This document shows, in pieces, positions 7,715-52,641 of a DNA stretch of 56,029 nucleotides. A program made the translations under genes and the position numbers. Numbering within the stretch: position 1 is the first letter of the stretch; every line of letters starts with the position of its first letter. Under the pieces are notes generated by a model that saw only the letters and a list, made by a program, of their open reading frames with translations, was not told the DNA's origin and did not search any database. This stretch comes from a virus: IMG/VR virus record IMGVR_UViG_3300010153_006010, positions 1 through 56,029 of that record, one strand, 5' to 3'.

Positions 7715-7720
7715 GTTGTT

Positions 7721-11113: not shown

Positions 11114-11127
11114 TGTATTATTTTATC

Positions 11128-36266: not shown

Positions 36267-36964
36267 TTGCCCGCTGTATTTACAAAGTGCTGAGGGAGGG
36301 GCTTAACAAACATTGTTCGTGTCATGCGTTTTGCAAAACAAGCCATAAGAGCATCATTAGGAATAGTAGATTGGTAAGATCCCGCTTCCATCTGAAACCC
36401 TAAACTTGTTGGGGAAGAAAATCTCAAATATGTATGCTCTGGAGAGTATTCCTCCCAAGCCCTAGAGAGCCTCGTCTTTGTGGCACAATATAATATTTCA
36501 AAACCATTAGAGTTATAAAAATCTCTGAATAAAGCTGGACTTAAAGAATAAAACCCTCTGCCATAAAACCCTGATATATTGGATGTGTGTAGTATCTTCC
36601 CCTTGTCCGATAAAAGATCTAGTATATTTTTCCAAACTGTAGAAATATCAAAACAACAATAAAGGGTGCCCGAATCTATTATCCAATCATAAGAGTTTTT
36701 CAACTCGTCCGGTATTTCCTCATTTAGATTTATTTTATGTGTAGGGTTTCCAACTACATCAAAAGTATGAACCGTGTCGAAGCCGAGCGATTCACCAAAC
36801 TCTATCAGTGAAGAATACCCACCAATGTTACAAACACGATCCTTTTGAATTACTAAACCAAGATTATTTCTAACGTTATCTCCCAATATAGCACAAGAAG
36901 TGCCACCAGGATGTTGGGACCTTAGTTCCCGGATAAGGCTTAAATCTTCTTCCTCTATAGCCAT
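36263..36964 (-). CDS. Methyltransferase-like protein of the glycan island
   Basis: A 233-residue protein with a class-I SAM-methyltransferase-like outline. A first strand and Gly loop (VCNIGGYSSLIEFGES) are followed by an acidic end of strand two (VHTFDVVGN), then a WIIDSGTLYCC strand, a helix, and KGKILHTSN as the strand after the turn. The Gly-rich loop is weaker than in classic members, so this could be a degenerate or unusual family. Methyltransferases in sugar clusters usually methylate hydroxyls of the finished glycan. It overlaps the dehydratase gene upstream by 10 bases and the HAD gene downstream by four bases, so it is firmly within the operon. Confidence 0.6.
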   Translation of the reverse strand: MAIEEEDLSLIRELRSQHPGGTSCAILGDNVRNNLGLVIQKDRVCNIGGYSSLIEFGESLGFDTVHTFDVVGNPTHKINLNEEIPDELKNSYDWIIDSGTLYCCFDISTVWKNILDLLSDKGKILHTSNISGFYGRGFYSLSPALFRDFYNSNGFEILYCATKTRLSRAWEEYSPEHTYLRFSSPTSLGFQMEAGSYQSTIPNDALMACFAKRMTRTMFVKPLPQHFVNTAGK

Positions 36965-37800
36965 TTTGATTCTCTCTTTCTAATATAAAAATTATTAAGC
37001 ATAATTTTTATAGCGTCAATATCCGGGGTTTTTACCTCGATGTCGTAAAAAATTTCTTCTTCTTGTTTTTCTTGGGAAATATCCTTATATTCTACTTGGT
37101 TAGGATATGAGTGGTACTCCTTATAAGCCTCACATAATTTATGAAGATGAATTTTATAACACTTCTCATTAAATATATACGTGGATTGGCTGCCCAAACA
37201 TGAACTAATTTTTTCAACGACCTCTCGGATGGGGACAAAATATCTAACCATGTCTCTATTGCTAACAGAAATTGGTTTTCCCTGGAGGCGCTGTTTATCC
37301 CAAATGTCCAAAACACTCCCAGTAGAAAAGAAAAAATTAACTCCTTGAAATACTGAGAAGTTGTGGTCTAATAATAGTTTTTCCGTAAGATATTTCGTGA
37401 CTCCGTATACACAAGAGGGATTAGTCGCTTTATCTGTGCTTATTCCTATTACGTTTTTAACATTATTTTCTAAAGCTGCTTCAATAATATTCTTGGTCCC
37501 AATCACATTAACTTCTATAGCTCTCGTTGGGTTTTGTTCACATATTTTAACGTGCTTCATAGCTGCTGTGTGAACAACATAATCGATATTATACTTTCTT
37601 AGTATATGGGAAATTTTATGTTTATTGGTAGAGATATCCAAATTATAGAGATTTAGTTTATTAGTATCGCTGTGAAAATTAATCTCTTGAGAGCGGGATT
37701 CTGAATTTGTTAATCCCACCACATGATGACCCGCCTCAATAAAGTGCGCTACTAATTCTCTCCCTAAAAATCCAGCAGCGCCAGTAATCAAAATATTCAT
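36955..37800 (-). CDS. NAD-dependent sugar dehydratase/epimerase, PseB/CapD-like
   Basis: An extended short-chain dehydrogenase of 281 residues. The Rossmann motif is ITGAAGFLGREL, the HTAAMKHVKICEQNPT segment and the ISTDKATNPSCVYGVTK region contain the Ser-Thr-Asp-Lys and the Tyr132-x3-Lys136 pair. An AAxKHV followed by STDKA is characteristic of the CapD/PseB family, which makes UDP-4-keto-6-deoxy sugars from UDP-GlcNAc, the first step to pseudaminic or legionaminic acid and to several O-antigen sugars. At 281 residues it lacks the large N-terminal membrane part of CapD and is somewhat shorter than PseB (about 330). The exact product cannot be told, and an epimerase function is an alternative. 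Confidence 0.82.
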   Translation of the reverse strand: MNILITGAAGFLGRELVAHFIEAGHHVVGLTNSESRSQEINFHSDTNKLNLYNLDISTNKHKISHILRKYNIDYVVHTAAMKHVKICEQNPTRAIEVNVIGTKNIIEAALENNVKNVIGISTDKATNPSCVYGVTKYLTEKLLLDHNFSVFQGVNFFFSTGSVLDIWDKQRLQGKPISVSNRDMVRYFVPIREVVEKISSCLGSQSTYIFNEKCYKIHLHKLCEAYKEYHSYPNQVEYKDISQEKQEEEIFYDIEVKTPDIDAIKIMLNNFYIRKRESKWL

Positions 37801-37812
37801 TAATTATTCCAA

Positions 37813-38568
37813 TTAAAAACAGTTTGCTTCGGCGGGGATGCCGAATTTATTGTTAATTTCATCAAAAATCTCAGACGCAACAGAACTTTCGGTATAAAAG
37901 CCTTCAATGCAACTGTCCCAAGCATAATAGCCCCTTTGGTGTTCCTCTAGATCTATGCTAGTATAACACTGGAGTAGGCTATCTTTTAATTCGGAATCTA
38001 CTTTATACTGATAATATTTGTGCGGGATTGTTAAGTTATTATATTCTATGCCACTGAGTTGCTGACAAAATACGTCATTGACCAAGTGAGTTTTATCGAA
38101 GCGGCGGGCAGCACGCTGACATGGTATCATAGCGAAATATGGTATTGTCATAAAAGAAAAATAAGAAAAAGGAACACTTTCTTTAGAACAATATTCTCTG
38201 ACTACATTATATAATTGTTTATGCTGGATATGTAAGTGTTCATCGCCATAGAAAGAATGAGTAATTATAAGGTCATACCCTATGGATCCTAAATTTTCTA
38301 AACCCTCCTTGATGATTTTTTCGGGGGAACTGATTAAAACGCCTCCAACTCTTACTAAATCATTCTTAAAATGATGCCAAGACTGGATATTTAATTTCCT
38401 CATGACCTCTCTGAAAGAAGATGACCTCGCAGGGTCCAGACCACCGGTCATACACAGAACACTAACATCCACCCCCTCCAGTTGACTTAAAAAATTTAAA
38501 GTTCCGCCGATCCACAATGACTCGTCGTCTGGGTGGGCGACTACAAATAATATTTTCTTATTACTCAT
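37813..38568 (-). CDS. LmbE/PIG-L-type deacetylase
   Basis: A 251-residue protein with the complete zinc site of the LmbE family: VVAHPDDESLWIGG near the N-terminus (residues 11-16) and a downstream THSFYGDEHLHIQHKQL (His116). The family removes N-acetyl groups from GlcNAc-containing molecules; examples are GlcNAc-PI deacetylase, MshB and BshB. In this island it could expose an amino group on a sugar nucleotide or lipid-linked sugar so that a different acyl group or another modification can be added. It is translated in overlap (ATGA) with the glycosyltransferase that precedes it. Substrate is not predictable by eye. Confidence 0.85.
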   Translation of the reverse strand: MSNKKILFVVAHPDDESLWIGGTLNFLSQLEGVDVSVLCMTGGLDPARSSSFREVMRKLNIQSWHHFKNDLVRVGGVLISSPEKIIKEGLENLGSIGYDLIITHSFYGDEHLHIQHKQLYNVVREYCSKESVPFSYFSFMTIPYFAMIPCQRAARRFDKTHLVNDVFCQQLSGIEYNNLTIPHKYYQYKVDSELKDSLLQCYTSIDLEEHQRGYYAWDSCIEGFYTESSVASEIFDEINNKFGIPAEANCF

Positions 38569-39629
38569 TTATTAAAACCTCTGAGATGTTGAAAAAATAT
38601 AGTAAATTTCTCCATATCCTTTACGTGTCCATTATAATGACGGCTTTTAACCCATGGCAAATTAACATAATGAGCTGGTAGGCGACTTACAAGATCATCC
38701 ACATTCAATAATTCTCCATCAAATTGTTGACCACCGGCAGCGTACAACTGTGTGAAATATTTCTTCAGTAATTTTATCGAAGACTCTTCTCTCAAAAGAT
38801 CGGCTTGAGGTGTTTTGTGGGACTCATATTTTTTATAATTTTCAACCGCATATATGAGAGATTCATGAGCAGTTTCATATGAATCAAATAACACAGAATT
38901 TTCATTAGTTAAGAAATCTAGCGAGCTTCCTTTTTGGTCTTTCCATATCACCGTGGGAAGACCACATAACATCCCTTCAGGTATAACTCCTGGAAATCCT
39001 TCCATTTGGGAAAATAATGTATTAACTTTCGAAGATTGATATAGGAAGGCTAATTGCTTTTTACTCAAGCCCTTGAACTCTAAGTCTTTCCCTAAGCGCA
39101 GAAGAGTAAACATATCACGTTCTGTGTCAGTGAACATGTCATAATATACATCTGCTATATCAACAAAGTGATCTTGAGTTGTCTCTTCATCTCTTGACGC
39201 ACAAACCAGCAAAATATTGTATTGATGCCCTAGAGAATATATTTTTTTAACTTCTCTAAAGAAGGTTTGGAGTTGTTTTACGTTTCCATTTCTGGATACA
39301 TTAATAATGTCCCAATACTTTTGGGCTGTAGGATTTAGATGGAACTTAGAGGAGGTAAAATTACCACTCGCCATGGGGATATGAAATATATGCGGATTTC
39401 TATCACTAATATCTACTACTGAAGGCAATCCCATGTAAAAATCAAAAGCTGGTGGTAGATTAACTCCTTTAGAAAATCCTCCATAATGCACACCTACAAA
39501 ATAATATTCTGTCATCTCTAGAAAGAGATTTTGAGCGTCAGTATTTGTTAAAATCCATCCCGCTTCTTGATGCGTGAGGACAACAATACCTTTATTATGA
39601 GAATCAGGGTGTTTAAATATGTGAGCCAT
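38565..39629 (-). CDS. Glycosyltransferase, GT-B fold (GT4-like)
   Basis: A 354-residue protein whose C-terminal half has the nucleotide-sugar site of GT4-like enzymes: LFSQMEGFPGVIPEGMLCGLPTVIW, with the E(x7)E-type arrangement, after a KQLAFLYQSSKVN helix. The N-terminal half shows a Rossmann-like start (GIVVLTHQEAGW) and an IFHIPMASGN loop. It has no membrane segment, so it probably works at the cytoplasmic face on a lipid- or protein-linked acceptor. Donor and linkage cannot be predicted. It sits 12 bases downstream of the PhyH-like gene and overlaps the LmbE gene. Confidence 0.75.
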   Translation of the reverse strand: MAHIFKHPDSHNKGIVVLTHQEAGWILTNTDAQNLFLEMTEYYFVGVHYGGFSKGVNLPPAFDFYMGLPSVVDISDRNPHIFHIPMASGNFTSSKFHLNPTAQKYWDIINVSRNGNVKQLQTFFREVKKIYSLGHQYNILLVCASRDEETTQDHFVDIADVYYDMFTDTERDMFTLLRLGKDLEFKGLSKKQLAFLYQSSKVNTLFSQMEGFPGVIPEGMLCGLPTVIWKDQKGSSLDFLTNENSVLFDSYETAHESLIYAVENYKKYESHKTPQADLLREESSIKLLKKYFTQLYAAGGQQFDGELLNVDDLVSRLPAHYVNLPWVKSRHYNGHVKDMEKFTIFFQHLRGFNK

Positions 39630-39641
39630 GGTTTTTTTATC

Positions 39642-40364
39642 TTATTGCGGGCGGCAATGTAATAAGACAACCTTTCTTGGTTTATTTGGTTCCAAAACAA
39701 TGCCGCCATAATGAAGAATGTCAGTATGAACGATTAAAAGGTCGCCCACGCCACCATCATACGAAACAGCATCCTCTTGTTTATATTTTGGATTATCGTC
39801 ATAATCACTAGGTTGGTGCTTACAGCCATTGTTCCAACCAGTTAAATCATGGAGATCCATTTTTTCAGTTCTATACCGTGCACCTTCAGAAATACTCCCA
39901 GGAATAGCATGGAAAGAACCATTGGCGGTATCTGTTTCAGAGAGATAAAGGATAAATTTTAATGATTCGTATGGATCAAAATGAAGCAGCGCATTTCTGG
40001 GATAAGCCTCTTCATTAACCAGAGGGTTATATTCAGTTGACATAAAGATTTGCATACCATATTTGTGCTCGCCTAAACACCCATGCGCTATCTCTTTTAA
40101 CGTCTGATTTTCAAATAAGTTATGAATGTTAGGTATAGTGATATAGGCGGGGGGCTGTACCCTAAGATGCTTTCCTAAATCGTAAGAGCCCGGCTCTTCT
40201 AGTTCGATATAATTTGGCTGATTTAAATAAGCCTGAGTTCTGTTTGGGATATTCGAAAAGATTGTATCGAATTCCTTAAGGACTGGATCAGGTTCTTTTA
40301 AAAAATTGTTGACAACATATATGCCATCTTTATTTACTTGTTCTATAATTTTATTAGTATTCAT
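39642..40364 (-). CDS. PhyH-type Fe(II)/2-oxoglutarate dioxygenase
   Basis: This 240-residue protein has the phytanoyl-CoA-dioxygenase-like core. The iron-binding facial triad is visible as His128-x-Asp130 (LLHFDPYES) and a distal His218 (DILHYGG), and Arg230 (NKPRKVV) is suitably placed to bind 2-oxoglutarate. A GSFHAIPGS segment between them is typical. Such oxygenases hydroxylate small molecules and, in glycan and natural-product clusters, sugar or lipid moieties. It overlaps the NeuB-like gene by the ATGA junction, so its substrate may be the nonulosonate or something linked to it. This is inference. Length fits the family. Confidence 0.8.
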   Translation of the reverse strand: MNTNKIIEQVNKDGIYVVNNFLKEPDPVLKEFDTIFSNIPNRTQAYLNQPNYIELEEPGSYDLGKHLRVQPPAYITIPNIHNLFENQTLKEIAHGCLGEHKYGMQIFMSTEYNPLVNEEAYPRNALLHFDPYESLKFILYLSETDTANGSFHAIPGSISEGARYRTEKMDLHDLTGWNNGCKHQPSDYDDNPKYKQEDAVSYDGGVGDLLIVHTDILHYGGIVLEPNKPRKVVLLHCRPQ

Positions 40365-41182
40365 TTTCTAAGGGTCCCTTTTTTCGCTAACTCACTTTGG
40401 AGGAGCACTCTAGGCTCTTTATTGCCCAAGGAAAGCTCTATATCTCTAATGCCCTTGACAAGTTTAAGAAGCCCATGCGGCTCGACAGAAGCCAACTGAT
40501 CGCTGCCCCACATTGTTCGGTCTAAGGTCACATGTCTTTCAACCCAATTTGCCCCCATTGCGGTGGCGGCGAAAGTAGTCACCAAGCCGTATTCATGACC
40601 ACTATAGCCTATTTCTGCGTTTGGCCATTTATCTTTCAAATATAAGATATAATTAAGATTAAGTTCAGCAACTGGGGATGGGTAACAGGAATTAGTATGC
40701 ATGATCACATCCGGGTTACAGGTTGTAATACATTTTTCTATTTCCTCTTCCGTGCTCATTCCCGTGGAAATGATAAGCTTATCAAAATTTTTCCTTACGT
40801 GGCGACATAATTCTAAATCCGATATTAGAGCGGAAGGTATTTTAGCAATATTGGTATACTCCCGCATAAATCTGGACGAATCAACATCCCATACAGACGC
40901 AAAACATTCTATATTTCGGTCTTTACAATAAGCAAATATCTCATCATACTCTTTCTTTTCGAACTCTATCTTTTTTTTATAATCAAGATAAGTCATCTCT
41001 CCCCAAGGAGTTTCCCTTATTTTGTTTTTTTGGTGCTCCGGAACACATATATCAGGAGTTCTTTTTTGAAACTTTACATAATCACACCCTGCTAATACAG
41101 AGACATCTATAAGCTTTTTCGCTATATCCAGAGACCCATTATGATTGATGCCTATCTCAGAAATAATTGAACATTTATTCAT
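40361..41182 (-). CDS. neuB: NeuB-type nonulosonate synthase lacking SAF domain
   Basis: A 273-residue TIM-barrel enzyme with the family signatures in order: SEIGINHNG (9-16), VKFQKR (37-41), IISTGMSTEEEI (about 137-148), NSCYPSP (164-170), GYSGHEYG (192-199) and ERHVTLDRTMWGSD (215-228). NeuB enzymes condense phosphoenolpyruvate with N-acetylmannosamine or a related hexose to give a nine-carbon sugar acid (Neu5Ac, pseudaminic or legionaminic acid). Usual members are about 340 residues with a C-terminal SAF (antifreeze-like) domain that reaches into the partner's active site. This chain ends straight after the barrel. It is followed by the PhyH gene (ATGA overlap) and preceded by the CMP-transferase and sialyltransferase. 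Confidence 0.9.
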   Translation of the reverse strand: MNKCSIISEIGINHNGSLDIAKKLIDVSVLAGCDYVKFQKRTPDICVPEHQKNKIRETPWGEMTYLDYKKKIEFEKKEYDEIFAYCKDRNIECFASVWDVDSSRFMREYTNIAKIPSALISDLELCRHVRKNFDKLIISTGMSTEEEIEKCITTCNPDVIMHTNSCYPSPVAELNLNYILYLKDKWPNAEIGYSGHEYGLVTTFAATAMGANWVERHVTLDRTMWGSDQLASVEPHGLLKLVKGIRDIELSLGNKEPRVLLQSELAKKGTLRK

Positions 41183-41194
41183 TTATAACCCTTG

Positions 41195-41827
41195 CTAAAA
41201 ATTTAGTTTTTTATAATCTTCTAGTGTGTCAACATCGACAACATCGCTTATGCGATAAAAGATCGTGTCCTCATTATACAAGTTATCATTGAGTCTGTCA
41301 AGGTGGTCGGCATTAAAAATACAAATATAGTGACTCAATCTAAAACAATTTGGATAATCTTGACGGCGGTAAAGATTATGGGCGACAACTTGTTTGCCCC
41401 GATTATCGCCCACAGACTCTAAACACAAATAAGGGTGATCAATTATTTCATGACGACATAATAAGCTATAAGCCTCACATTCAGCGTAATAATCGTAAAT
41501 ATTCTTTATATCAGTAGTTTTTCTTTCAGGATACGTCAAATATAAAAGAATAATATCCGCCGAACTTATGCCTTTGTCTTTTATTATTTCTCTCACAGCT
41601 TCCTTCATAGATGCTGTATCACTGCTATTGTATGAACTTCTAATGTGAACGTCTATACCGAATTTATGGGACATCTTGATAATTTCTTGATCATTAGTGC
41701 TCACAATAACATTGGCATATTCTTCTTTTGGGATTTGCTCTATAGTATATTTGAACAACTTCCTATTCTTATCAGGAAAACCCTTAGAACCAGAGCGAGC
41801 AGGAATTATATAAATACGTTCATTCAT
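41195..41827 (-). CDS. neuA: NeuA-type CMP-nonulosonate cytidylyltransferase
   Basis: A 210-residue protein with the cytidylyltransferase start [16 protein letters not shown], where the Arg and Lys bind CTP, followed by [10 protein letters not shown] and [15 protein letters not shown], and ending with [14 protein letters not shown]. These are the marks of NeuA/PseF/LegF enzymes, which activate the nine-carbon acid with CMP. The region equivalent to LLQPTSPLR is altered ([14 protein letters not shown]), so substrate preference may be unusual. The gene overlaps the sialyltransferase stop by 8 bases and precedes NeuB in the transcript, so activation, synthesis and transfer are encoded in three adjacent genes. 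Confidence 0.87.
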
Positions 41828-42419
41828 ATAAAGTAATTCTTCCTTCAGTGTGTAATGATCTAATTTTTTGCTCTTCTTTATTCTTTGCGTGGTTTTGTTC
41901 GTAAGGTATTACACTCTCAAAATAATGAAATTTTGCTGGGTCCTGGAAAAAAGAAAACCCATAACAACTTACTTTGTCAAAGTTCTCTAGTGCATACTGT
42001 ATTCCCAAATAACCCATTGTTGGGTCGCCGCCCAATTGAGATGAGTGTTCTTTTAGCCACTCGTCCGAAATATGCTGGATTTTATTGCCACGATTGATCA
42101 AATCATTATAAAGCGATGATTTACTATTAAAATTCGGGAGTGATTTGATCCATAATTCCTCATTCCTCATTTGGTTTATAAATTCATTATCATACTCTGG
42201 GAAGTATTTCGTATGTTCCTTGAGGTGTAACTCATCTAGAGCACACAAAATCGGATGACAGTTCATGAACCGAAGTGTTCTCTTAGAGCCTACAAACTTT
42301 TCATAACCAGTAGTTTCGGCGATGTTAAATCGGACAACTACATCATGAGAATCAATTTCTTCCCCGTTTTCCTTCTCTAGTATAATTGGTGAATTACCTA
42401 CAACAGCACACGAAATCAT
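41820..42419 (-). CDS. GT29-type sialyltransferase, compact catalytic domain
   Basis: This 199-residue protein carries all four eukaryote-style sialylmotifs in order. Motif [16 protein letters not shown], then [12 protein letters not shown], then [17 protein letters not shown] (residues 4-52). Motif [17 protein letters not shown] and VSCYGFSF (about 132-157). Motif III: HYFE (165-168). Motif VS: a His177-x4-Glu182 pair in [15 protein letters not shown]29 enzymes transfer sialic acid from CMP-sialic acid to a glycan end, using the motif VS His as base. It lacks the N-terminal transmembrane anchor and stem of animal enzymes, so it is a cytoplasmic minimal catalytic domain. The ribosome site GAGAGG precedes ATG 42419. 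It sits next to the CMP-donor genes, which supports the function. Confidence 0.85.
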
Positions 42420-42422
42420 TTT

Positions 42423-42800
42423 TTACCTCTCTAAAATCTTCTTAAATTCTTTATAGTCTCGAATATAGTTGTCTTCTGTATATTTGGAATTAGCAAAAAC
42501 CAACAGAGAAGTATTAGATTCTATATATTCTAATATGAGCCATTCCAACTCTTTTTGGTGATATACTTCACCTCGGTTCATGGTGAACTTGACGATACCA
42601 GATCTATCTTCCTTAGTGACATTTACAGAACCGTTTAGACAGATTAGATAATGTTCTTCGTTTTGGTGGGCATGATTACCACGGATGTCTCCAGGCTCAA
42701 CATTTTGAACGAAAAAGAACCTCTCTGGCTTAAATGGTAATCTATCTATTTCACAAGGAATTAAAAACCCATTAGAATTTTGTTTAACTTCTAGTTGCAT
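42423..42800 (-). CDS. dTDP-4-keto-6-deoxyhexose 3,4-ketoisomerase, FdtA/QdtA-like (WxcM cupin)
   Basis: A 125-residue cupin. The motif EPGDIRGNHAHQNEEHYLI contains the RGxHAH signature (40-45) of FdtA/TylM3/QdtA ketoisomerases, whose His pair shifts the keto group from C4 to C3 of dTDP-4-keto-6-deoxyglucose. A PFKPERFFFV strand and the later VNVTKEDRSGIVKF fit the fold. In other bacteria the reaction precedes transamination to dTDP-3-amino-3,6-dideoxyhexoses (Fuc3N or Qui3N). The next gene product is a DegT-type aminotransferase and an RmlB-like dehydratase lies upstream, so the pathway is consistent. Which stereoisomer results cannot be read from motifs. Confidence 0.86.
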   Translation of the reverse strand: MQLEVKQNSNGFLIPCEIDRLPFKPERFFFVQNVEPGDIRGNHAHQNEEHYLICLNGSVNVTKEDRSGIVKFTMNRGEVYHQKELEWLILEYIESNTSLLVFANSKYTEDNYIRDYKEFKKILER

Positions 42801-43719
42801 TTTCTTTCACCAAATTAATAACTTTATTCACCTCTTGATTTGTCATCTTTTCGTGAAATGGGAGTGATATAGTAGTGCGCCCTTCTTCTGAAGAATAGGG
42901 GAGATCTAAATAATCAACAAAATTGGGGTTATAAATTGTATTCTCATGTAAAGCGCCATAATGGATGCCAGTTTGTATTCCGTCTTTTCCCATCAAAGTT
43001 ATAAGCTCACCCCTGTTAATAACGTTTATTCTATACAAATGGTTGCTAGTATTATTTAACCCAAAAGATTTATCATAAACTGCTCTGATTTCGGATAGTC
43101 TATTGTTTTTCTCATCAAGAATTTCTAAATTACGTGTGGCGATAAAAGCCTGTAAAGAATTCATATACATTTTATATCCTGGGAATTTGATCTTTCTATC
43201 CCAATTGTGTTCTGAGAAGGTCATACCATTAAGAGTTGATTCCTTAAATCTTTTTATTTTTTCCCAATCATTAGATACTATGATTCCGCCGTCGCAGGAC
43301 CCTACTGGTTTCGTCGGGTAAAAACTGAAGATCATTAGATCTTCATCGTTCGCCTCGGTGGAGAATTGATTTCTTTCAACTTTCTGTGCTGAATCTATTA
43401 CTTTATAATTGTCAAACTCGTGTAGGACATAAGAGCCCCCGACCCAGCCTACATTATCTACAAAATTTATCTTATTTCCTCCAGTAATAAGTCCATTACA
43501 AACGACAGGCGGGATAATAGAGGGAACATTCACCGTGAGCATCTTATTAAGAAATATTAAAAAGATTGCGTTTGTCGCACTATTGACAGAACACGCATAT
43601 TTTGCGCCAACATATTCACAAAACTTATTCTCAAAATTGTCTACCACCTTGTCGTGTAAAAGGTGAGAAAATTTAGATGTGTCTATGGTGTACGAAGGCA
43701 CATTAAATAGACTTATCAC
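42784..43719 (-). CDS. PLP-dependent sugar aminotransferase, DegT/FdtB-like
   Basis: A DegT/DnrJ/EryC1/StrS family aminotransferase of 311 residues if started at GTG 43719, which overlaps the preceding stop as GTGA; a TTG nine codons upstream is the alternative. Key parts are ENKFCEYVGAKYACSVNSAT near the N-terminus, DSAQ as the cofactor-contacting region, and the FYPTKPVGSCDGG segment that carries the PLP lysine. The usual family length is about 370, so it is short. Being fused in overlap to the FdtA-like gene suggests it aminates the 3-keto sugar; alternatively it could act as the PseC-type enzyme for the nonulosonate. I favour the first. Confidence 0.84.
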   Translation of the reverse strand: MISLFNVPSYTIDTSKFSHLLHDKVVDNFENKFCEYVGAKYACSVNSATNAIFLIFLNKMLTVNVPSIIPPVVCNGLITGGNKINFVDNVGWVGGSYVLHEFDNYKVIDSAQKVERNQFSTEANDEDLMIFSFYPTKPVGSCDGGIIVSNDWEKIKRFKESTLNGMTFSEHNWDRKIKFPGYKMYMNSLQAFIATRNLEILDEKNNRLSEIRAVYDKSFGLNNTSNHLYRINVINRGELITLMGKDGIQTGIHYGALHENTIYNPNFVDYLDLPYSSEEGRTTISLPFHEKMTNQEVNKVINLVKENATRS

Positions 43720-44507
43720 TGCTTTAATCCCATATAACAAATCCAAGTGTAGGAAGGGGCCTCTTCTAAGTATGTAGGATATTTATCGCCTGTATCTAAA
43801 TCTAACAAAGGTGGAGGGGAATTATATGTATCATCGTCCCAAGTGTCTCCCCACCTTGTATTGGGAATTTTATATATGGGCGGCATCTCTTGATAGACCT
43901 CTACTCTATCATCAAACGCTTGATACGCTGCGTATGAATATTTATGATGAGTTCTATCCCCGGCGTGGTCCATGATATAATCCCTACAAGCTAATATTTT
44001 TTTAGGAGAAAAAGTATCTCCTTGTGTTGTTGGATAATTATCTTCATATAAAATGTGTTGGATGCCGAGGCCATGTACATATTCCAGGCGCTGTAAAAAA
44101 TCCTGATGATCATCTAGGAACAAAAGTATGTCGTTTTTAGATATATTTTCTTCTGTTTCCATCTGAGAAAACAAATCGTCCCAATCATATGATGTCATAT
44201 CTTGGTCTAAATAAATCGCTTTATCACTTTTATATATAAGATGTTGATAAGTTATATCAATAGAGATTATTTTAGCCTCGGGCACTGCTTTTTCTATTAT
44301 CCAAGTTCCGAGACCCTTCCACACACCGCTCTCTATGACAACTTTAGGTTGTAATTGCTTCAAGGCATACCATGTATTAAACAAATGGGGTGATTTCATC
44401 CCTCCTTGATTATCTTTGATGGGTCTTTCCGCATAAATACTGTAAAACTCATCTAGACTATTTTTTACTTGTTCGAAATCATCATATTTTATCATATTGT
44501 TCTTCAT
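43716..44507 (-). CDS. SAM methyltransferase-like protein (cephalosporin-hydroxylase/sugar O-MT type)
   Basis: A 263-residue protein with a class-I methyltransferase start (KVVIESGVWKGLGTWIIEKA), then IISIDITYQH at the end of strand two and ILLFLDDHQDFLQRL at strand four. This arrangement resembles small sugar- and macrolide-type methyltransferases, where an acidic residue binds metal. The C-terminal half (YEDNYPTTQGD, KYSYAAYQAFDD) is not diagnostic. It is encoded between another methyltransferase-like gene and the aminotransferase, both by ATGA/GTGA overlaps. Likely substrate is a hydroxyl of the phage-directed glycan; this is inferred from location. Confidence 0.7.
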   Translation of the reverse strand: MKNNMIKYDDFEQVKNSLDEFYSIYAERPIKDNQGGMKSPHLFNTWYALKQLQPKVVIESGVWKGLGTWIIEKAVPEAKIISIDITYQHLIYKSDKAIYLDQDMTSYDWDDLFSQMETEENISKNDILLFLDDHQDFLQRLEYVHGLGIQHILYEDNYPTTQGDTFSPKKILACRDYIMDHAGDRTHHKYSYAAYQAFDDRVEVYQEMPPIYKIPNTRWGDTWDDDTYNSPPPLLDLDTGDKYPTYLEEAPSYTWICYMGLKQ

Positions 44508-45109
44508 TGTGCTTCATCCTTTCGAAACAGAAATGTGCGGTGGTTGCTATTATATGGGAACGATTGACACTCTTCCACAAGCCCAAACCCATTAAATCTA
44601 AATGTATTCATCAAATTTTCATAATTCAATATTGTTTTGATAGTCGGAAGGTTGCCATATGTTGTGTAATTGTCAAGATGAGTTTCCGTATTTGTTATTT
44701 CTTGGCGATGAATTAAAATATCACCTTCACTATGAAGTAATATTTTATTAAGTATAATATACCATTCCGGCACTTCACTGAGAAAACTGTTCATCAATAT
44801 TAAGTCATACTGTTTAGTAAATTCAAAATTGGTTTCATTGGCATCGATAGATATATATTTTCCCGAAGGGTTGGACACCTTAGACACTTTCTCTATGATG
44901 TGAGGTAAATCGGCTCCGGTATAGTCCCACTGAGGAAAAGCCGCAGAAGCTTCGGCAGTGCCACAGCCGATGTCCAACAAAGTTCTTCCGTCGGATAGTT
45001 CCACACATCGACTAAGAGAGGCAAAATGATCTGATTCTTGTAAAGGTCGAAAGCCCGCAGTTAACATTGATGTGGGAAGAGCGTCGGTGTTATACCAAGC
45101 TGTTTTCAT
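44504..45109 (-). CDS. SAM-dependent methyltransferase, class I
   Basis: A 201-residue protein with the clear class-I motif TLLDIGCGTAEASAAFP (Gly-rich loop), a following DYTGADLP strand whose Asp binds the SAM ribose, and YDLILMNSFLSEVPEW as motif IV/post-I helix. This is a standard small-molecule or sugar methyltransferase. It begins at ATG 45109, overlapping the GT2-type gene by 20 bases, and ends in an ATGA overlap with the next methyltransferase-like gene. No substrate-specific features are visible. It likely caps or trims the glycan made by the island. Confidence 0.83.
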   Translation of the reverse strand: MKTAWYNTDALPTSMLTAGFRPLQESDHFASLSRCVELSDGRTLLDIGCGTAEASAAFPQWDYTGADLPHIIEKVSKVSNPSGKYISIDANETNFEFTKQYDLILMNSFLSEVPEWYIILNKILLHSEGDILIHRQEITNTETHLDNYTTYGNLPTIKTILNYENLMNTFRFNGFGLVEECQSFPYNSNHRTFLFRKDEAQ

Positions 45110-45995
45110 GATTATCTAACTCCATATCTATTCTCCTTTTCAGGGAATTCATATTTTTGGCTATAGCTTGGGGGTGTCTACCTTCGAACTCTGCCGTATA
45201 ACATTCACCTCTATATTCAGCCTTGAATTCGTGTACTCCTTCATATTCTTTTTCTAGGTGGTACCTTTCGAATGGTTCAAGTTTCATCCACGGTAAATAA
45301 ACCCTATTATAATAATCGTCTATACACTTAGACATGCTTACTTTGGCTTTATAATATTCAATCTTGTTTTTTACCTGTTTTGGAAAAACGTAAGAATAGT
45401 GATACATCTCAATGCCGGTTGTTTGATACAGTGTCTCGCTATCTATGTGTTTCTTTGTGATAGATGAAGAAGTGGGGTATTTTATAGTAGGAGGACGGTG
45501 AGTTAGCCAGGTACTTCCAGGAGTAACCCTAAACACTCTTAAAAAATTATCCCTGTTTAACTCAAAACCTGTTAGATAATTGTCAAAACCGCCGTAAAAA
45601 CTTTTACTTCGAACACCTACACTGGTTGGTTTCACCTCGTCGAGAAAATCTAACATTTTTTCTATGTCGGATTGTAGATATAATTCATCACTGTCTAAAT
45701 TCCACAGATAATCTATGTCATCCCTCAAATGAGATAGATAAGCGTTACACTGCTCATCTTTTTCTTTATATTGACCATGTACAATTTGAATTTTATTATC
45801 AGGGTCTGGAAAATTAGTTAATATTTCGTTAGTCCTATCAGTAGAAGTTGTTCTCCCACGATCTTGCCAATATTTTACGGGACCCTCGGCGATTAAAATT
45901 TGTGTAGCATAAGGGTAAACCTGTTCGAGACATTCTTGGAGGACATAATCCCCCTCAAAGACTATCATTCCGAATGCTATTTTTGGTTTTGTCAT
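45090..45995 (-). CDS. GT2-family glycosyltransferase
   Basis: I start this 301-residue protein at ATG 45995 because AGGGAAG is well placed before it; an upstream ATG at 46013 would lengthen the overlap. The chain shows a GT-A start (IAFGMIVFEGDYVLQECL), TSTDRTNEILTNF, and the metal-binding WNLDSDELYL. The remaining residues are Tyr- and Lys-rich. GT2-like enzymes use UDP-, dTDP- or CMP-sugars to extend glycans. Its gene overlaps the GT8-like gene, so the two probably act in sequence. Acceptor and donor are unknown. Confidence 0.78.
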   Translation of the reverse strand: MTKPKIAFGMIVFEGDYVLQECLEQVYPYATQILIAEGPVKYWQDRGRTTSTDRTNEILTNFPDPDNKIQIVHGQYKEKDEQCNAYLSHLRDDIDYLWNLDSDELYLQSDIEKMLDFLDEVKPTSVGVRSKSFYGGFDNYLTGFELNRDNFLRVFRVTPGSTWLTHRPPTIKYPTSSSITKKHIDSETLYQTTGIEMYHYSYVFPKQVKNKIEYYKAKVSMSKCIDDYYNRVYLPWMKLEPFERYHLEKEYEGVHEFKAEYRGECYTAEFEGRHPQAIAKNMNSLKRRIDMELDNHENSLV

Positions 45996-46884
45996 GTGCT
46001 TCCCTGAGATCATTATAATATTGATCTGCTATAAGTTTAATAAATTGTTGCTGGTGCGCTGAATGAGTTGGTTCTTTGAGGAACCCATGGCGTGGAGCTA
46101 GTTCATATGAATTTATATCATACTTTGGTTTAAAATTTGAAAAATGGCAATACAATAATTCTTGCTCTTTTTTATTCCAGACTATTTTATTATTTGTATA
46201 TCCATGATAATTGAAATTCCACGGAGCTAAATGACCTATATCCTCATCTAGGACTTTAACGTTGGTGGATAATTGTTCAAATACTTCTAGATATTTTTGA
46301 TCGCCGCAGGTGCCATGAGTTTGAAAATATTCATTATCATGTCTTAAAAGACAATTTTTCCACCATGTTAAAACTTTATATCCCTCGAAATCATTTTTAA
46401 AATAGACTATACCAACATTATACTTTCCATTAACTGGGTTATAGGGACATCGATGTTCTACTATTCCCACACTACAATCTTCTACAGATTTTTCAAGGTC
46501 TTCTAGTCCTCGGAGAAAATAAATATCTGAATCTATGTATAAAATATCATCTACTTCTAAATTCTCTAAACACCACCAACTAAAATAGGAAGCAAGTGCC
46601 CAAAGAAATTGTAATTTTTGTGCTTGAAGAAAATCGTTTCCAGTGTTTAGCAAAGCCTCCCTTGATGGTGGGTTCGAGCGAGCAGTTCGTAAATTAACGT
46701 CTTCTCTTAATAGATCTGATATCTTATACTTCTTTATATTTGGTTCATTACATTTTCTATATATCTCGTCATCTACACACAATAAATGTAAAACGTAATT
46801 TTCCTGATGGCGCTTCAATGAGGTATTAAGAGCTAATACCTTTTCTGTGAAGTTGTTATCAGCTAAGGTACAGAAATTATTCAT
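45955..46884 (-). CDS. GT8-like glycosyltransferase
   Basis: A 309-residue protein. Features that suggest a GT8-type fold are FCTLADNNFTEKVLALNTSL at the N-terminus, the metal-binding ILYIDSDIYFLRGLEDL with its DxD, KYNVGIVYFKN, and a GDQKYLEVF segment. GT8 enzymes are metal-dependent retaining transferases using UDP-galactose or UDP-glucose. A Trp-rich helix (FLWALASYFSWWCL) lies between and may bind the acceptor. There is a 79-base gap before it, the largest inside the island. The start is ATG 46884 with only a weak GAGAA ribosome site. Substrate is unknown. Confidence 0.75.
   Translation of the reverse strand: MNNFCTLADNNFTEKVLALNTSLKRHQENYVLHLLCVDDEIYRKCNEPNIKKYKISDLLREDVNLRTARSNPPSREALLNTGNDFLQAQKLQFLWALASYFSWWCLENLEVDDILYIDSDIYFLRGLEDLEKSVEDCSVGIVEHRCPYNPVNGKYNVGIVYFKNDFEGYKVLTWWKNCLLRHDNEYFQTHGTCGDQKYLEVFEQLSTNVKVLDEDIGHLAPWNFNYHGYTNNKIVWNKKEQELLYCHFSNFKPKYDINSYELAPRHGFLKEPTHSAHQQQFIKLIADQYYNDLREAHDKTKNSIRNDSL
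46001..46005 (-). promoter_or_regulatory. Ribosome site deciding the GT2 start
   Basis: AGGGA on the minus strand, five bases before ATG 45995, inside the last codons of the preceding GT8-like gene. It favours the second methionine over the first (46013). Confidence 0.65.
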
Positions 46885-46963: not shown

Positions 46964-47857
46964 TTATATAAATTTAATTATTCCTTGGTTTTTTTCTATC
47001 GTAAAGCCGGTGTTATCTAGCTTTTCTGAATCTATTGAATATCTTACATCTTGGCCGAGCCTGTTTTTTACATATTTAACATGCGGATTGATATCATCAA
47101 TATTATACCATGAACACACCTGACTGACAACTTCTATGTTGGTTAAATGATTATCAGCCGCAATATTGAATACTTCATTTCTTTCGCCGCTGAGAATAAG
47201 ATGATAAATAGCCTTAACATTATCTTCCACCCGAACCCAGTCTCGTATATAAGACCCGTCGCCATGAATAGGAATACAAGTCTTGTTTTCTAAACATTCT
47301 ATAATTTTGGGAATCAATTTTTCTGAATATTGTCTTGGTCCATAGTTATTTGAGCTTCGAGTTATTAGATACTCTAGTCCGTAAGTTTTATTATGAGAGA
47401 ATACAAACATTTCGCCCGCTGCCTTACTAGCAGAATAAGGATTGCTAGGTAAAAGCATGTCCCTCTCGTAAAATTTCTTATCCCTTGTATCTCCATAAAC
47501 TTCATCGGTGCTTATTTGTACAAAAAGAGGCGGGTTATAAACCTTAGCCCTCACTAGTTCCAAGAGATTGAATACCCCTCGGGCATTACTATCAAAGAAC
47601 ACCTTAGGAGACTCAATAGAATTATCTACATGAGATTCGGCAGCGAAGTTAACCACCACATCACATGGCGGCAGGTGGGTCATAGTAGATATATCTTCTT
47701 GGCGTAGTTCATATTTGGGGTCATCATCCCAGGGTAATTCTTTATTAGAAGCATAAGTCATCTTGTCGATATCAATTACTTCATGCCCCTTCAATAATAA
47801 TAATTCCACGAAGTGACTCCCAATGAAACCTCTTCCGCCCGTAACAACAAACTTCAT
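46964..47857 (-). CDS. rmlB: dTDP-glucose 4,6-dehydratase, RmlB-like
   Basis: I use ATG 47857, which follows the upstream stop by one base, rather than the longer frame that adds 41 unrelated residues. The resulting 297-residue protein is an extended SDR: VVTGGRGFIGSHFVELL, NFAAESHVDNSI, then ISTDEVYGD (Ser116-Thr117-Asp118-Glu119) and NPYSASKAAGEM (Tyr141/Lys145). The Asp-Glu pair after Thr is the mark of 4,6-dehydratases, which turn dTDP-glucose into dTDP-4-keto-6-deoxyglucose. The usual length is about 350, so some C-terminal substrate-binding residues may be shortened. With the FdtA- and FdtB-like genes it forms a pathway; no RmlA is present, so dTDP-glucose must come from the host. Confidence 0.88.
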   Translation of the reverse strand: MKFVVTGGRGFIGSHFVELLLLKGHEVIDIDKMTYASNKELPWDDDPKYELRQEDISTMTHLPPCDVVVNFAAESHVDNSIESPKVFFDSNARGVFNLLELVRAKVYNPPLFVQISTDEVYGDTRDKKFYERDMLLPSNPYSASKAAGEMFVFSHNKTYGLEYLITRSSNNYGPRQYSEKLIPKIIECLENKTCIPIHGDGSYIRDWVRVEDNVKAIYHLILSGERNEVFNIAADNHLTNIEVVSQVCSWYNIDDINPHVKYVKNRLGQDVRYSIDSEKLDNTGFTIEKNQGIIKFI

Positions 47858-47858
47858 A

Positions 47859-49856
47859 TTATGATCCTTGTAAAAAAAGTTTTTGGTATGTTTTGAATAT
47901 CGAAAACTCCTCCTTCTGTTTCTTTTTTTCTGTTTCCTTATTGGTGGAAATACCTGTTGGGTTAACATAGTACAAGCCAAGGATCTTGTTTAAGCATAAA
48001 AATTTCGAACCGGCGAAAGCAGCACGGAGCCACATCTCCCAATCACCGGCACTAAAATATTCGTTGTTAAAGATGCCATATTTATCATGGAGTGTTTTCC
48101 TCCACATTGGATTGTTGTGAGGCGAATTGGATTTTAGTAAGGTTTCCTTGCCTGTGTAGGCAAAAGGTCTTAATTGTCTCCACGATGGATCATTATCTTC
48201 AAACTTTTGATTTGGTGTATCAGTTACATAACAGTCGGCGTAAACGAGATCCACATCATCATTTACACACAAAGTTTTGGCGTGATATTCTAGAGAATCA
48301 GGACTCTTACGATCGTCAAGGTTAGCATTGGTTAAATACTCCCCAGTAGAGATCTCAACGCCCATATTCCATACCGCATATATGCCTGGGTCTTCTTCCA
48401 GTCGCCGGTACACGATATTATCTGGGTATTTTTTTATGTATTTATTAATAACATCTTCTTCATTACCAGGAGAATTAGCGTTGATCAATATGAGTTCACA
48501 CTTTTCCTTAAAAATGCTTTGACGAGTTATATCCTCCATAAACCCATCGATATAATCATCACCATCATAGACAGAAGTAATAATAGAAATTTTAGGAATG
48601 CGAGTTATTGGGATATCATCATAATTGGTTAAAGATAAATCTTTTTGTAAAAATTTACTGTATTTATCTCGGACCACTGATATGTCTTGGGTTTCTCTGA
48701 GATATTCGGTTAAACGACTGACATCAAAATCTAAAAAACGACTGCCTTTTCTAATACTTTTTAAATGTTTTTTAAATGATTCTTCTCGTGGATAAGCCCA
48801 CTCACACTTTTCAGTTATCAAGCCAGGCATTAAATGATGAGGCTTCACCTTTTCAATATCGTAACCAACTTTCATAAAATGACTTTTTATCTTTTTCTTC
48901 TTGGACTTAGAAAGCACAGGAATTCGTAAGAAATCTAAATGACCTGACCAATTGGTGGCTATTACCGGAATATTATTACAGGCAGCCTGAAAGAGTGGTA
49001 TTCCGAAACCTTCGCCGTGTGTTGTGGAAATATAACATTTAATAACGTCTGGGTTATAAAGAGATTCCATCTCTTGACTGGATAAACTCCCATGTACCAG
49101 ATAAACTCTACATTTTCTTTCCTTGCAAATTGTATCCAAGAGACCATTTAGTCGATCCCTGGTATGATGAAAATCCACAGTACTATTATTATGGGCATAA
49201 GTTTTTATAACCAAACCGACATCTTCATCATCCTTGAATTCCTCGATAAACCATTTTAACATATTGTCAAAGTTTTTACGGGGAGCCATTTGTAAGACTG
49301 TAAGAAAATTAAATTTTGTAGTTAATCCCATGGGGGTATAAATGTCTAGTTTTTCCTCGGCTTTATAACCAAAAGGAATAATACTAATAGGAGTTTTTAT
49401 TCTCTCACCACTATCAGATTTCGTGTTCTTGAGATTATTTTGAGCATGTTGAGAAACAACCAAAATATGATTCATCAAATTACACGGAGAAACCCACTCA
49501 GAAGGGGCAAAAGTAGTTTCTAAAGCAGCAGTAACTCCGATATCATTCTCGGACATCTGTTGAAATTCGTTGGGGGGTCTTACTTGATATGTCGTGTCAA
49601 ATAGTCCCGCAATATTTATTTCCCCATTAGGATTCGCTCTTTGTTGAAACAACGTAGTAGTTTTATGAATATATTCTTCGTACTTTGCGGCATACTTATG
49701 ACTGCGAGTAGCCGAAGCCCATTGTGTATCTTGGATATAAAGATCTATTTGGTTCCCCAGACTGATGAAAGCATCAGCGATCGTCCTAGCATGTTCGCTG
49801 TAGCCCGAAATATTACACACTGGTCCGATAATAAGAACTTTTGGAATAGTTGTCAT
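47859..49856 (-). CDS. Bifunctional glycosyltransferase, GT4-GT2 fusion
   Basis: A 665-residue protein with two transferase domains. The first ~390 residues form a GT-B unit: GPVCNISGYSEHARTIADAF, LTVLQMAPRKNFDNML, and the nucleotide-sugar loop THGEGFGIPLFQAA. After a linker, residues about 425-640 are a GT-A (GT2) unit: ISIITSVYDGDDYIDGFM, ELILINANSPGNEED, AVWNMGVEISTGEYLTNAN and a Leu-Asp-Asp metal site. The fusion could add two sugars in one step. It is the second glycosyltransferase gene of the island in transcription order and overlaps its neighbour as ATGA. Donors unknown. Confidence 0.83.
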   Translation of the reverse strand: MTTIPKVLIIGPVCNISGYSEHARTIADAFISLGNQIDLYIQDTQWASATRSHKYAAKYEEYIHKTTTLFQQRANPNGEINIAGLFDTTYQVRPPNEFQQMSENDIGVTAALETTFAPSEWVSPCNLMNHILVVSQHAQNNLKNTKSDSGERIKTPISIIPFGYKAEEKLDIYTPMGLTTKFNFLTVLQMAPRKNFDNMLKWFIEEFKDDEDVGLVIKTYAHNNSTVDFHHTRDRLNGLLDTICKERKCRVYLVHGSLSSQEMESLYNPDVIKCYISTTHGEGFGIPLFQAACNNIPVIATNWSGHLDFLRIPVLSKSKKKKIKSHFMKVGYDIEKVKPHHLMPGLITEKCEWAYPREESFKKHLKSIRKGSRFLDFDVSRLTEYLRETQDISVVRDKYSKFLQKDLSLTNYDDIPITRIPKISIITSVYDGDDYIDGFMEDITRQSIFKEKCELILINANSPGNEEDVINKYIKKYPDNIVYRRLEEDPGIYAVWNMGVEISTGEYLTNANLDDRKSPDSLEYHAKTLCVNDDVDLVYADCYVTDTPNQKFEDNDPSWRQLRPFAYTGKETLLKSNSPHNNPMWRKTLHDKYGIFNNEYFSAGDWEMWLRAAFAGSKFLCLNKILGLYYVNPTGISTNKETEKKKQKEEFSIFKTYQKLFLQGS

Positions 49857-51112
49857 AGTTTTTCTACCCTAATATATTGGTAATTTTTTCTCGTCGTCCA
49901 AGACCCCTGGTCGGCGTGCAAATTAAGCATGAAGTTGACCCACTGAGAATTAAATTTCTCAAAGTTATAATTTTCCTGAACATGTTTTTGTCCTGCGACG
50001 CCGAGAGCCTCACGTTCTTCTGGGGATGATTTGTACATTTTTACTAGCGCATCGAGGAAATCTTTCTTGGCAAGTCTGTCTTCATAAATATAGGGAACCT
50101 GCTGGGATCCTATAATAGCCTTAGAAGCAGGCTCTAAACCAATACCAAACCACTTTTTGCCATCCGTTACCTGTTCTTGCAAACCACCTGTCATATTGAC
50201 AATAATAGGGGTACCACAAGACAAGGATTCAAGAGTAGCTAAACCAAAACCCTCAGCATCTGATATGTTAATTGTACACCCGGCCAGATTATACAATAGA
50301 CTTAATTGTTCAGCCGGCAACTTCTGAGTAGATAACACCATCTCCCCGTCTTTGAACCCTAAATTATTAGCTAAGTAATGAAGAGGTTGACCGTGAGGGT
50401 CGTTAGGATCTGTATGCATGAATAAGCACACCTTATCTCGCTCTATCCCTTCCAGGTCCAAAAATTCTCTAAACCAATGAATTAAACTACCAGTTTGTTT
50501 GCGTCGGGCATTTCTATTATTCCAAAAAAAGATAAATCGACCATCCAAAGCAGGGTTGTTTTTCCTTACCTCCGATAACTCTTTTTCCGATTTTTTACAA
50601 AAGATTGAAGAATCTACCGCATGAGGAATATACTCCTCTTTAACTGATGGAGCTACTGTTCTAACAATATCACTGGTCACTTTTGAGATGCTAGCAATAG
50701 CATCATTGGATTCATAAAATCTCTTATTAAAGTTAGGATATGGATAATTATCCCAGACATGGTAATAAACCATAGGAATATTCTCCCGTATGGTATCATC
50801 CATAGACCATAACCACTCATAAAACCTAGGATCAGTCATAAAATAGAGAATATCTGGTTTTCTATCTCTGATAAAAGAGTTTATTATCTGAGCGTTGCCA
50901 TAACCATCAATTGGGAAGATCTCCCAATCATCGCCGTATTGTTCTACCTTTTTTGGAGTGTAGTCTTGATGTTTGATCGCCCCCCCTAAGGAAATTACAT
51001 TAAATTTACCACTAGCCAGTAATGCTTCAATCATATATTTTGTTTGAGTAGCTACCCCAGAAGGTAATAAAGGGTGATCACTAATCGTGAGAACTGTTAT
51101 TTTTTTATCCAA
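49853..51112 (-). CDS. GT4-family glycosyltransferase
   Basis: A 419-residue GT-B enzyme. The start is TTG 51112, since it is the codon just before the conserved KKITVLTISDHPLLPSGVATQTKYM; no upstream ATG exists before the neighbouring stop. The C-terminal half shows FFWNNRNARRKQTGSL and the E(x7)E-like INISDAEGFGLATLESLSCG, which bind the sugar nucleotide. An Arg-Lys-rich patch after the first domain may contact a phosphate. It is the first gene of the carbohydrate island in transcription order. Donor and acceptor are unknown. Confidence 0.84.
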   Translation of the reverse strand: MDKKITVLTISDHPLLPSGVATQTKYMIEALLASGKFNVISLGGAIKHQDYTPKKVEQYGDDWEIFPIDGYGNAQIINSFIRDRKPDILYFMTDPRFYEWLWSMDDTIRENIPMVYYHVWDNYPYPNFNKRFYESNDAIASISKVTSDIVRTVAPSVKEEYIPHAVDSSIFCKKSEKELSEVRKNNPALDGRFIFFWNNRNARRKQTGSLIHWFREFLDLEGIERDKVCLFMHTDPNDPHGQPLHYLANNLGFKDGEMVLSTQKLPAEQLSLLYNLAGCTINISDAEGFGLATLESLSCGTPIIVNMTGGLQEQVTDGKKWFGIGLEPASKAIIGSQQVPYIYEDRLAKKDFLDALVKMYKSSPEEREALGVAGQKHVQENYNFEKFNSQWVNFMLNLHADQGSWTTRKNYQYIRVEKL

Positions 51113-51981: not shown

Positions 51982-52641
51982 TTAGTTGTTGACGACTTGA
52001 TCAATCTTGTTATATAGTTCGGGGCTAATTTTCTTTAATTTTTCTTTATCTTCTAAAAAGTATGCCTCAAAACCAGTAGCGAAATATTCTCGGAGCGAAA
52101 TCGAAGCATAGGGGCGTATAAAAATACCAGCAGTCATCATCTTTAAAAGGTTGCTCCCAATACGCTTATACAATAATACGTCCAATTCCGAATCATATTT
52201 GAGGTCCTTAAAATCATACTCTTTTGTCCAATATCCTTCAGATCTTAATTCAAACTCTAATTGCGATCGTTTTTTAAGAAACTCATCCTTTAACTTTTGG
52301 TCAGCATATAATTCTTCTGGATATAGCATCTCAACATGATGTGCAAACTCGTGAACTATATCGTTTATTAAATCGGTGGCGTCATCCTGCTCGTGAGTAA
52401 TATAAAACACGCCATCGTCATAAAGAGCGTTAGCGTCACGGGTTTTGAAACTTTCCTGATGACCTATTTCTACACCTTTTAAACCTCTGAAAAACTGTGC
52501 CGGAAGCAAGTTTTCGATAGACCTAAAGATTGCTTGTGGGTTTATATCTCCTGGTAGTTCTTCTCTTTGTATTACAGGCACATTGCCAAATTTAAAGTGG
52601 CGGGGGGTGTCTTTAACTTTTTCGAAAATATAATCCCTCAT
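51982..52641 (-). CDS. Zinc metallopeptidase-like protein (HEFAHH)
   Basis: A 219-residue protein with HEFAHH at residues 97-102, a classical HExxH zinc site in a helix preceded by TDLINDIV. A downstream helix contains YFATGFEAYFLED, whose Glu could be the third ligand as in gluzincins. The rest is charged and soluble, with no signal peptide. The function is not known. Candidates are processing of a phage structural protein or cutting of a host regulator. It overlaps the PIN-PhoH gene as ATGA and the nuclease gene lies 15 bases downstream. Confidence 0.72.
   Translation of the reverse strand: MRDYIFEKVKDTPRHFKFGNVPVIQREELPGDINPQAIFRSIENLLPAQFFRGLKGVEIGHQESFKTRDANALYDDGVFYITHEQDDATDLINDIVHEFAHHVEMLYPEELYADQKLKDEFLKKRSQLEFELRSEGYWTKEYDFKDLKYDSELDVLLYKRIGSNLLKMMTAGIFIRPYASISLREYFATGFEAYFLEDKEKLKKISPELYNKIDQVVNN

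Follow-up and report, generated by a model that had tools for sequence, protein, structure and literature searches.

GT29 is treated mainly as a eukaryotic sialyltransferase family, to which a small bacterial group is added. The stretch of viral DNA analysed here (the window, 56,029 nucleotides) raises the question of whether a bacteriophage encodes a member of this family, and which sugar such an enzyme would transfer. An earlier note, made from the sequence alone, had described one gene as coding for a compact, animal-type GT29 enzyme lying beside CMP-donor genes.

The window is a 56-kb virus record with baseplate wedge genes, a RuvC-like resolvase, a phage-type PhoH and an M23 endopeptidase that resembles phage endolysins. 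Its PhoH is about 37% identical to those of the best-ranked annotated phages (all below 60%), and 70-89% identical to those of many uncultured viral contigs; by these distances, the annotated phages searched appear to include no near relative of the lineage. A marine origin is suggested by relatives that include a seawater single-cell virus. The gene in question belongs to a cluster located between the baseplate and M23 genes and a block containing phage PhoH and a tmRNA. This cluster is collinear in a second viral contig, and contamination by cellular DNA is therefore unlikely. The tmRNA (54024-54348, minus strand; Rfam RF00023, 83 bits) adjoins PhoH and encodes the tag ANDDFNMEMAA. Of 20 related viral contigs, 14 have a tmRNA next to PhoH according to ARAGORN, and their tags include ANDDFQLAQAA and ANDDFEMEMAA; annotated phages match the tmRNA of the window over the last 34 nt only. 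Also in the window, the 219-residue product of 51982-52641 (minus strand) shows a weak Peptidase_M90 match, barely above the cut-off, and a match to the ATLF domain family below it; judged by sequence, it is likely a zinc metallopeptidase.

The gene and its sialylmotifs are as follows.

41820-42419, minus strand: GT29 glycosyltransferase, 199 aa (PF00777, predicted fold, motifs and conservation)
Residues 3-52 of the product: motif L
Residues about 131-158: motif S
Residues 165-168: motif III, HYFE
Residues 177-182: motif VS, H177-x4-E182

This ORF encodes a genuine GT29 family member. It starts with ATG, the opposite (plus) strand is rich in stops, and its limits are exactly those proposed earlier, when the strand had been left out. 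Family membership, which the earlier note had derived from motifs, is borne out by a strong match to Pfam PF00777 (Glyco_transf_29; 7.9e-32, 111.2 bits, curated cut-off 23) that spans profile positions 55-271 of 272. Among PDB sequences, phmmer ranks pig ST3Gal1 first (2.5e-12), followed by ST6GalNAc2, ST6Gal1 and ST8Sia3. The AlphaFold model (pLDDT 91, pTM 0.87) adopts the sialyltransferase fold, the GT29 variant of GT-A; its best 30 PDB matches in Foldseek are all mammalian GT29 sialyltransferases, with TM-scores by query of up to 0.68, and the next are the GT42 enzymes CstII and Cst-I. GT42, which includes Campylobacter CstII (1ro7), has a related fold and a CMP-sialic acid donor. However, its match to the window protein is much weaker by fold (4.6e-5, against 4.9e-11 for GT29) and by profile (33 against 107 bits), and membership of that family was rejected. 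All the motif strings quoted in the earlier note are present in the ORF, and in the profile alignment HYFE and H177-x4-E182 fall on motif III and on the H-x4-E of motif VS in ST3Gal1, ST6Gal1 and ST8Sia3. Neither of the results that the earlier note had named as fatal to its reading, a missing GT29 HMM hit or a different fold with the His177/Glu182 pair out of place, was observed. In an alignment of 122 sequences (119 prokaryotic or viral relatives and three animal proteins), the catalytic histidine is kept in 83 of 86 phage, 29 of 33 bacterial and all three animal sequences. Compared with a 72%-identical relative, differences at codon positions 1, 2 and 3 amount to 0.27, 0.16 and 0.53, a third-position bias that marks a protein-coding gene under purifying selection.

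The protein shares with the vertebrate enzymes (ST3Gal, ST6Gal, ST6GalNAc and ST8Sia) the Pfam family, the fold, motifs L, S, III and VS and the catalytic histidine. By contrast with them, it has no anchor, stem or disulfide pair, is shorter by about 54 N-terminal profile positions, and would be located in the cytoplasm of the infected bacterium, encoded beside donor genes. The absence of an anchor and stem had been claimed from the sequence and is upheld, as the protein begins at motif L and its highest 19-residue hydropathy is 0.59. Of the two cysteines that join motif L to motif S, both present in the three animal sequences, Cys4 is found here and the partner position is occupied by Phe147. 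Bacterial GT29 proteins (23 in PMC5811610, and that of the Bdellovibrionales locus L082) are likewise devoid of anchor and disulfide, the latter in agreement with the same survey, which placed the 23 at the base of the family and did not mention viruses. Most of them are longer than the window protein (median ORF 352 aa).

The scores against PF00777 group the window's clade with L082 (about 93-123 bits; 111 for the window and 123 for L082), while the other bacterial GT29s tested reach 26-64 bits. The nearest relative found in a cellular genome is that of L082, with 36% identity over residues 3-197, and the L082 locus also holds NeuB, a CMP-synthetase and PIG-L; its NeuB-SAF is fused to a xylose-isomerase-like barrel. 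A 54-row tree placed the animal GT29s within the phage-dominated side (support 99/92). With more bacteria this support was lost, and a phage group held apart from the animals was not rejected (AU test, p=0.57); the placement of the animal GT29s among those of phages was thus withdrawn. These trees contain only three animal sequences, taken from the profile-alignment output. Direct transfer from an animal is not accepted as the origin of the gene, given that its nearest relatives belong to phages and Bdellovibrionales. The description "animal-type" therefore holds at the level of the family, but not beyond it, since the nearest relatives are phage proteins and one from Bdellovibrionales, the disulfide pair is missing and the tree resolves no animal link.

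The enzyme is not an isolated case among viruses. The alignment search of IMG/VR gave 79 loci, and GT29 was confirmed by HMM in at least 77 viral loci (the IMG/VR set plus a 484-kb phage), with a median ORF of 196 aa against the 352 aa of bacteria. Within the annotated phage collection, a GT29 match is confined to one record, the 484-kb uncultured phage (LR756508). Four GT29 ORFs occupy positions 7186-12007 of this phage (locus L003); three are arranged in tandem and overlap at their ends, and the adjacent NeuB is 53% identical to that of the window. In two phages with close PhoH relatives (L280 and L281, minus strand), proteins of 630-660 aa show a partial GT29 match, to the motif L region, about 370-430 residues in. 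Bacterial GT29 are scattered: at least 37 loci were found in about 85,000 genomes scanned with one motif pattern, which makes this count a lower bound, and Pfam detects the family in 2 of 46 Bdellovibrionota genomes and in 6 of 369 and 2 of 385 genomes from the classes of Pseudoalteromonas and Pseudovibrio. The earlier view that GT29 is rare outside eukaryotes fits the sampled bacteria, but at least 77 viral loci hold the gene. As far as the available part of the sources goes, coccolithovirus and chelonid herpesvirus 5 also bear GT29 genes; these viruses, however, infect eukaryotes that have GT29 genes of their own, whereas the window is from a bacteriophage. The sialyltransferase of Azotobacter phage TayeBlu was considered as a further phage GT29 and set aside, as its name (alpha-2,3/2,8) suggests GT42 instead (PMC12772287; by name only). 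PHROGs returned no GT29 family for the window protein and its nearest phage relatives, NCBIfam has no model matching the window protein, and no paper describing GT29 in bacteriophages was found in the literature searched, a search that was not exhaustive. The enzyme family itself is known, and the novelty lies in its occurrence in a phage, in the minimal size, in a cassette that brings along its own donor supply and in the natural exchange of the latter.

The donor supply is found in the surrounding genes. Between 35934 and 51112, the minus strand carries a nearly gapless run of glycan genes of ~15 kb, comprising two nucleotide-sugar dehydratases, FdtA, a DegT aminotransferase, PIG-L, PhyH, at least one methyltransferase, several GT4/GT2 glycosyltransferases, NeuB, a CMP-sugar synthetase and GT29. 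Apart from GT29, the following were annotated.

36955-37800, minus strand: nucleotide-sugar 4,6-dehydratase-like, PseB/FnlA-like, 281 aa (PF02719, 2e-46; NCBIfam PseB 126 bits, below cut-off)
37813-38568, minus strand: PIG-L family de-N-acetylase (PF02585, 3.5e-09)
38565-39629, minus strand: glycosyltransferase group 1, GT4-like (PF00534, 3.3e-08)
39642-40364, minus strand: PhyH-like dioxygenase (PF05721, 3.4e-06; adjoins GT29 in contig L248 too)
40361-41182, minus strand: NeuB-family nonulosonic acid synthase, 273 aa (PF03102, 1.3e-63; NCBIfam best NeuB_NnaB, 205 bits, cut-off 400)
41195-41827, minus strand: CMP-sugar (nonulosonate) synthetase, NeuA/PseF-like, 210 aa (PF02348, CTP_transf_3, 5e-13; NCBIfam best PseF, 57 bits, below cut-off)
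42423-42800, minus strand: FdtA-like dTDP-4-keto-6-deoxyhexose isomerase (PF05523, 6.9e-25)
42784-43746, minus strand: DegT-family sugar aminotransferase (PF01041, 1.5e-32)
44504-45109, minus strand: methyltransferase (Methyltransf_11, 21.6 bits, barely passing the cut-off of 21.2)
45090-46013, minus strand: GT2 glycosyltransferase (PF00535, 2e-09)
45955-46884, minus strand: possible GT8-like glycosyltransferase (YIDSDIYF by sequence reading; no Pfam match)
46964-47857, minus strand: dTDP-glucose 4,6-dehydratase, RmlB-like (PF16363, 8e-56; NCBIfam 296 bits; start set by comparison with contig L002)
47859-49856, minus strand: two-domain GT4-GT2 glycosyltransferase (PF00534 and PF00535)
49853-51112, minus strand: GT4 glycosyltransferase (PF00534, 1.1e-11)

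The CMP-donor neighbours asserted earlier are thus confirmed by Pfam and NCBIfam, with GT29 overlapping the synthetase by 8 nt and a gap of 12 nt between the synthetase and NeuB. The NeuB consists of the TIM barrel only, with no SAF domain. Neither it nor the synthetase reaches an NCBIfam equivalog cut-off, which does not fix the type of sugar: with NeuB nearest to NeuB_NnaB and the synthetase nearest to PseF, both well below the cut-offs, the sugar would be a nonulosonic acid (NulO) of one type or another. The cluster yielded neither a UDP-GlcNAc 2-epimerase nor a full Leg/Pse pathway, and the substrate of NeuB must therefore come from elsewhere.

Whether GT29 and the donor genes belong together was assessed across the viral records. 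Among 50 GT29 viral records, NeuB is present in 14, a CTP_transf_3 gene in 25 and a KdsA-family gene in nine. However, NeuB is no commoner there than in a background of marine phages chosen by PhoH (13 of 50), and co-occurrence over whole records alone proves nothing. In the reverse direction, GT29 occurs in 13 of 50 NeuB records against 3 of 50 in the PhoH set (p=0.012), sets that represent different phage lineages. The window's own GT29 clade has NeuB on the contig in all 10 members, three of which (L248, L228 and L234) were fetched through NeuB and are hence not independent; when only records fetched by GT29 are counted, NeuB is found in 5 of 5 from this clade against 9 of 45 others (p=0.001). 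The two genes lie within 1.5 kb of each other in 7 of 14 records where 1.6 are expected (p=0.0001), under a random placement that ignores the clustering of glycan genes; since these genes form islands, the test overstates the linkage. Gene order offers a further line of evidence. L248, from a contig of 200 kb, shows the order PhyH, GT29, synthetase, NeuB, with overlaps among the last three, and L228 and L234 have NeuB, synthetase and GT29, abutting or overlapping by a few nt. The association of GT29, NeuA and NeuB in differing orders argues for a functional bond.

The closest comparison is provided by L002, a viral contig whose GT29 is 72% identical to that of the window over the full length. 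Its cluster is collinear with that of the window, and the neighbours compared are 67-87% identical as proteins and about 70-72% as DNA. The exceptions are the synthetase, 36% identical over no more than 77 aa, and NeuB, 28% identical over 226 aa; the NeuB of the window has 273 aa, whereas that of L002 has 487 aa and includes a cupin domain. The DNA match ends about 50 nt short of the stop codon of GT29 and restarts at the first PhyH codons, limits which make NeuA and NeuB exactly the two genes that differ.

40351-41873, minus strand: segment exchanged between the window and L002, NeuA and NeuB being replaced by non-orthologous homologues (protein and DNA comparison; limits converted from blastn pieces)

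The two clusters represent a natural exchange of the donor module beside a transferase that is kept. The NeuB of L002 (9341-10804) carries a cupin/lyxose-isomerase-like domain as a fusion. The long NeuB-cupin form also occurs in L006, the third clade member compared, where it is 53% identical to that of L002. The swap raises a testable question, namely whether one GT29 works with two donors or two modules lead to the same donor.

In GT29 enzymes the transfer is inverting and metal-independent, and the histidine of motif VS is the general base in the animal enzymes. Built on the family, fold, catalytic residues, coding conservation, packed gene run and recurrent linkage to NulO genes computed here, the reading that we consider probable is that a minimal cytoplasmic GT29 transfers a nonulosonic acid, from the CMP-NulO made by the adjoining genes, onto a phage-directed oligosaccharide built by the cluster. 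NeuB would condense a hexosamine, supplied by host or phage, with phosphoenolpyruvate to give the NulO, which the adjoining synthetase would convert into CMP-NulO. GT29 would then transfer it in an inverting, metal-independent reaction, with His177 as the general base, to an oligosaccharide produced by the other glycosyltransferases of the cluster. Judging from this context, the donor would be CMP-NulO, and the product would be displayed, in the course of infection, on proteins of the virion or on the surface of the host.

These two destinations are variants of the same explanation. In the first, which we rate as a serious possibility somewhat short of an even chance, the oligosaccharide is built in the cytoplasm and put on a capsid or tail protein, and GT29 adds a charged cap. 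The cluster contains at least six glycosyltransferases together with sugar-modifying enzymes, and by hydropathy none of its proteins has a membrane segment (highest 19-residue mean 1.74), so it would lack its own flippase, polymerase and ligase; this tips the balance slightly towards assembly in the cytoplasm, either on protein or on lipid-linked precursors of the host. However, the host export machinery could serve, and for this phage no virion protein is known to be glycosylated. In the second, a surface polysaccharide of the host is remodelled during infection, for example against adsorption of competitors. The genes epaA and epaB of Acinetobacter prophages, which change the nonulosonic acids of a bacterial surface glycan (PMC12053666), offer a precedent, but their carriers are prophages and no lysogeny gene was seen among the window genes examined; this destination is credible too, if not quite an even bet.

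A different donor, CMP-Kdo or another ulosonate from host lipopolysaccharide synthesis, would leave NeuB to serve another transferase. The plant GT29 RCKT1/MGP2 is a likely CMP-Kdo transferase for RG-II, and no sialyltransferase activity is discernible in plant GT29s (PMC11288761); unlike the window's enzyme, it is a Golgi enzyme for pectin with a Kdo context rather than NeuB. Three of the nine phage GT29 records with KdsA-family genes (L008, L011 and L015) form one GT29 clade, located with KdsA-type and CTP-transferase genes, and their GT29s are candidate phage Kdo transferases. This clade, in keeping with the plant members, suggests that more than one ulosonate probably serves as substrate for the GT29s of phages. 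For the window such a donor is improbable: it has NeuB, none of the cluster proteins scanned gave a KdsA-type match, its clade has NeuB throughout, and the Kdo-linked clade stands apart from it in the trees. The sialic-acid-like sugar proposed earlier thus agrees with the adjoining donor genes, but it is deduced from context, and some phage GT29s go with Kdo genes. That GT29 is an inactive or non-enzymatic relic, as its 199 aa and lack of the N-terminal part of the animal domain might suggest, is very improbable, as the catalytic motifs are intact, the codons are under selection, viral GT29s usually have about 196 aa and the gene is kept in L002 although its neighbours were exchanged.

A wider proposal, bolder than the transfer of a nonulosonic acid favoured above and rather doubtful, is that phages hold a large and largely undescribed radiation of minimal GT29s, with subclades matched to different CMP-ulosonate donors (NulO or Kdo) and donor cassettes that are exchanged while the transferase next to them stays. 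These enzymes, instead of the longer bacterial GT29s, may be the nearest kin of eukaryotic sialyltransferases. With the phage GT29s, new sequences can be brought to the disputed question of where the family originated; at ~200 residues and anchor-free, these proteins also represent natural minimal catalytic domains for glycoengineering. For the biology of the phages themselves, a GT29 encoded beside its own donor genes is evidence that they may attach sialic-acid-like sugars during infection.
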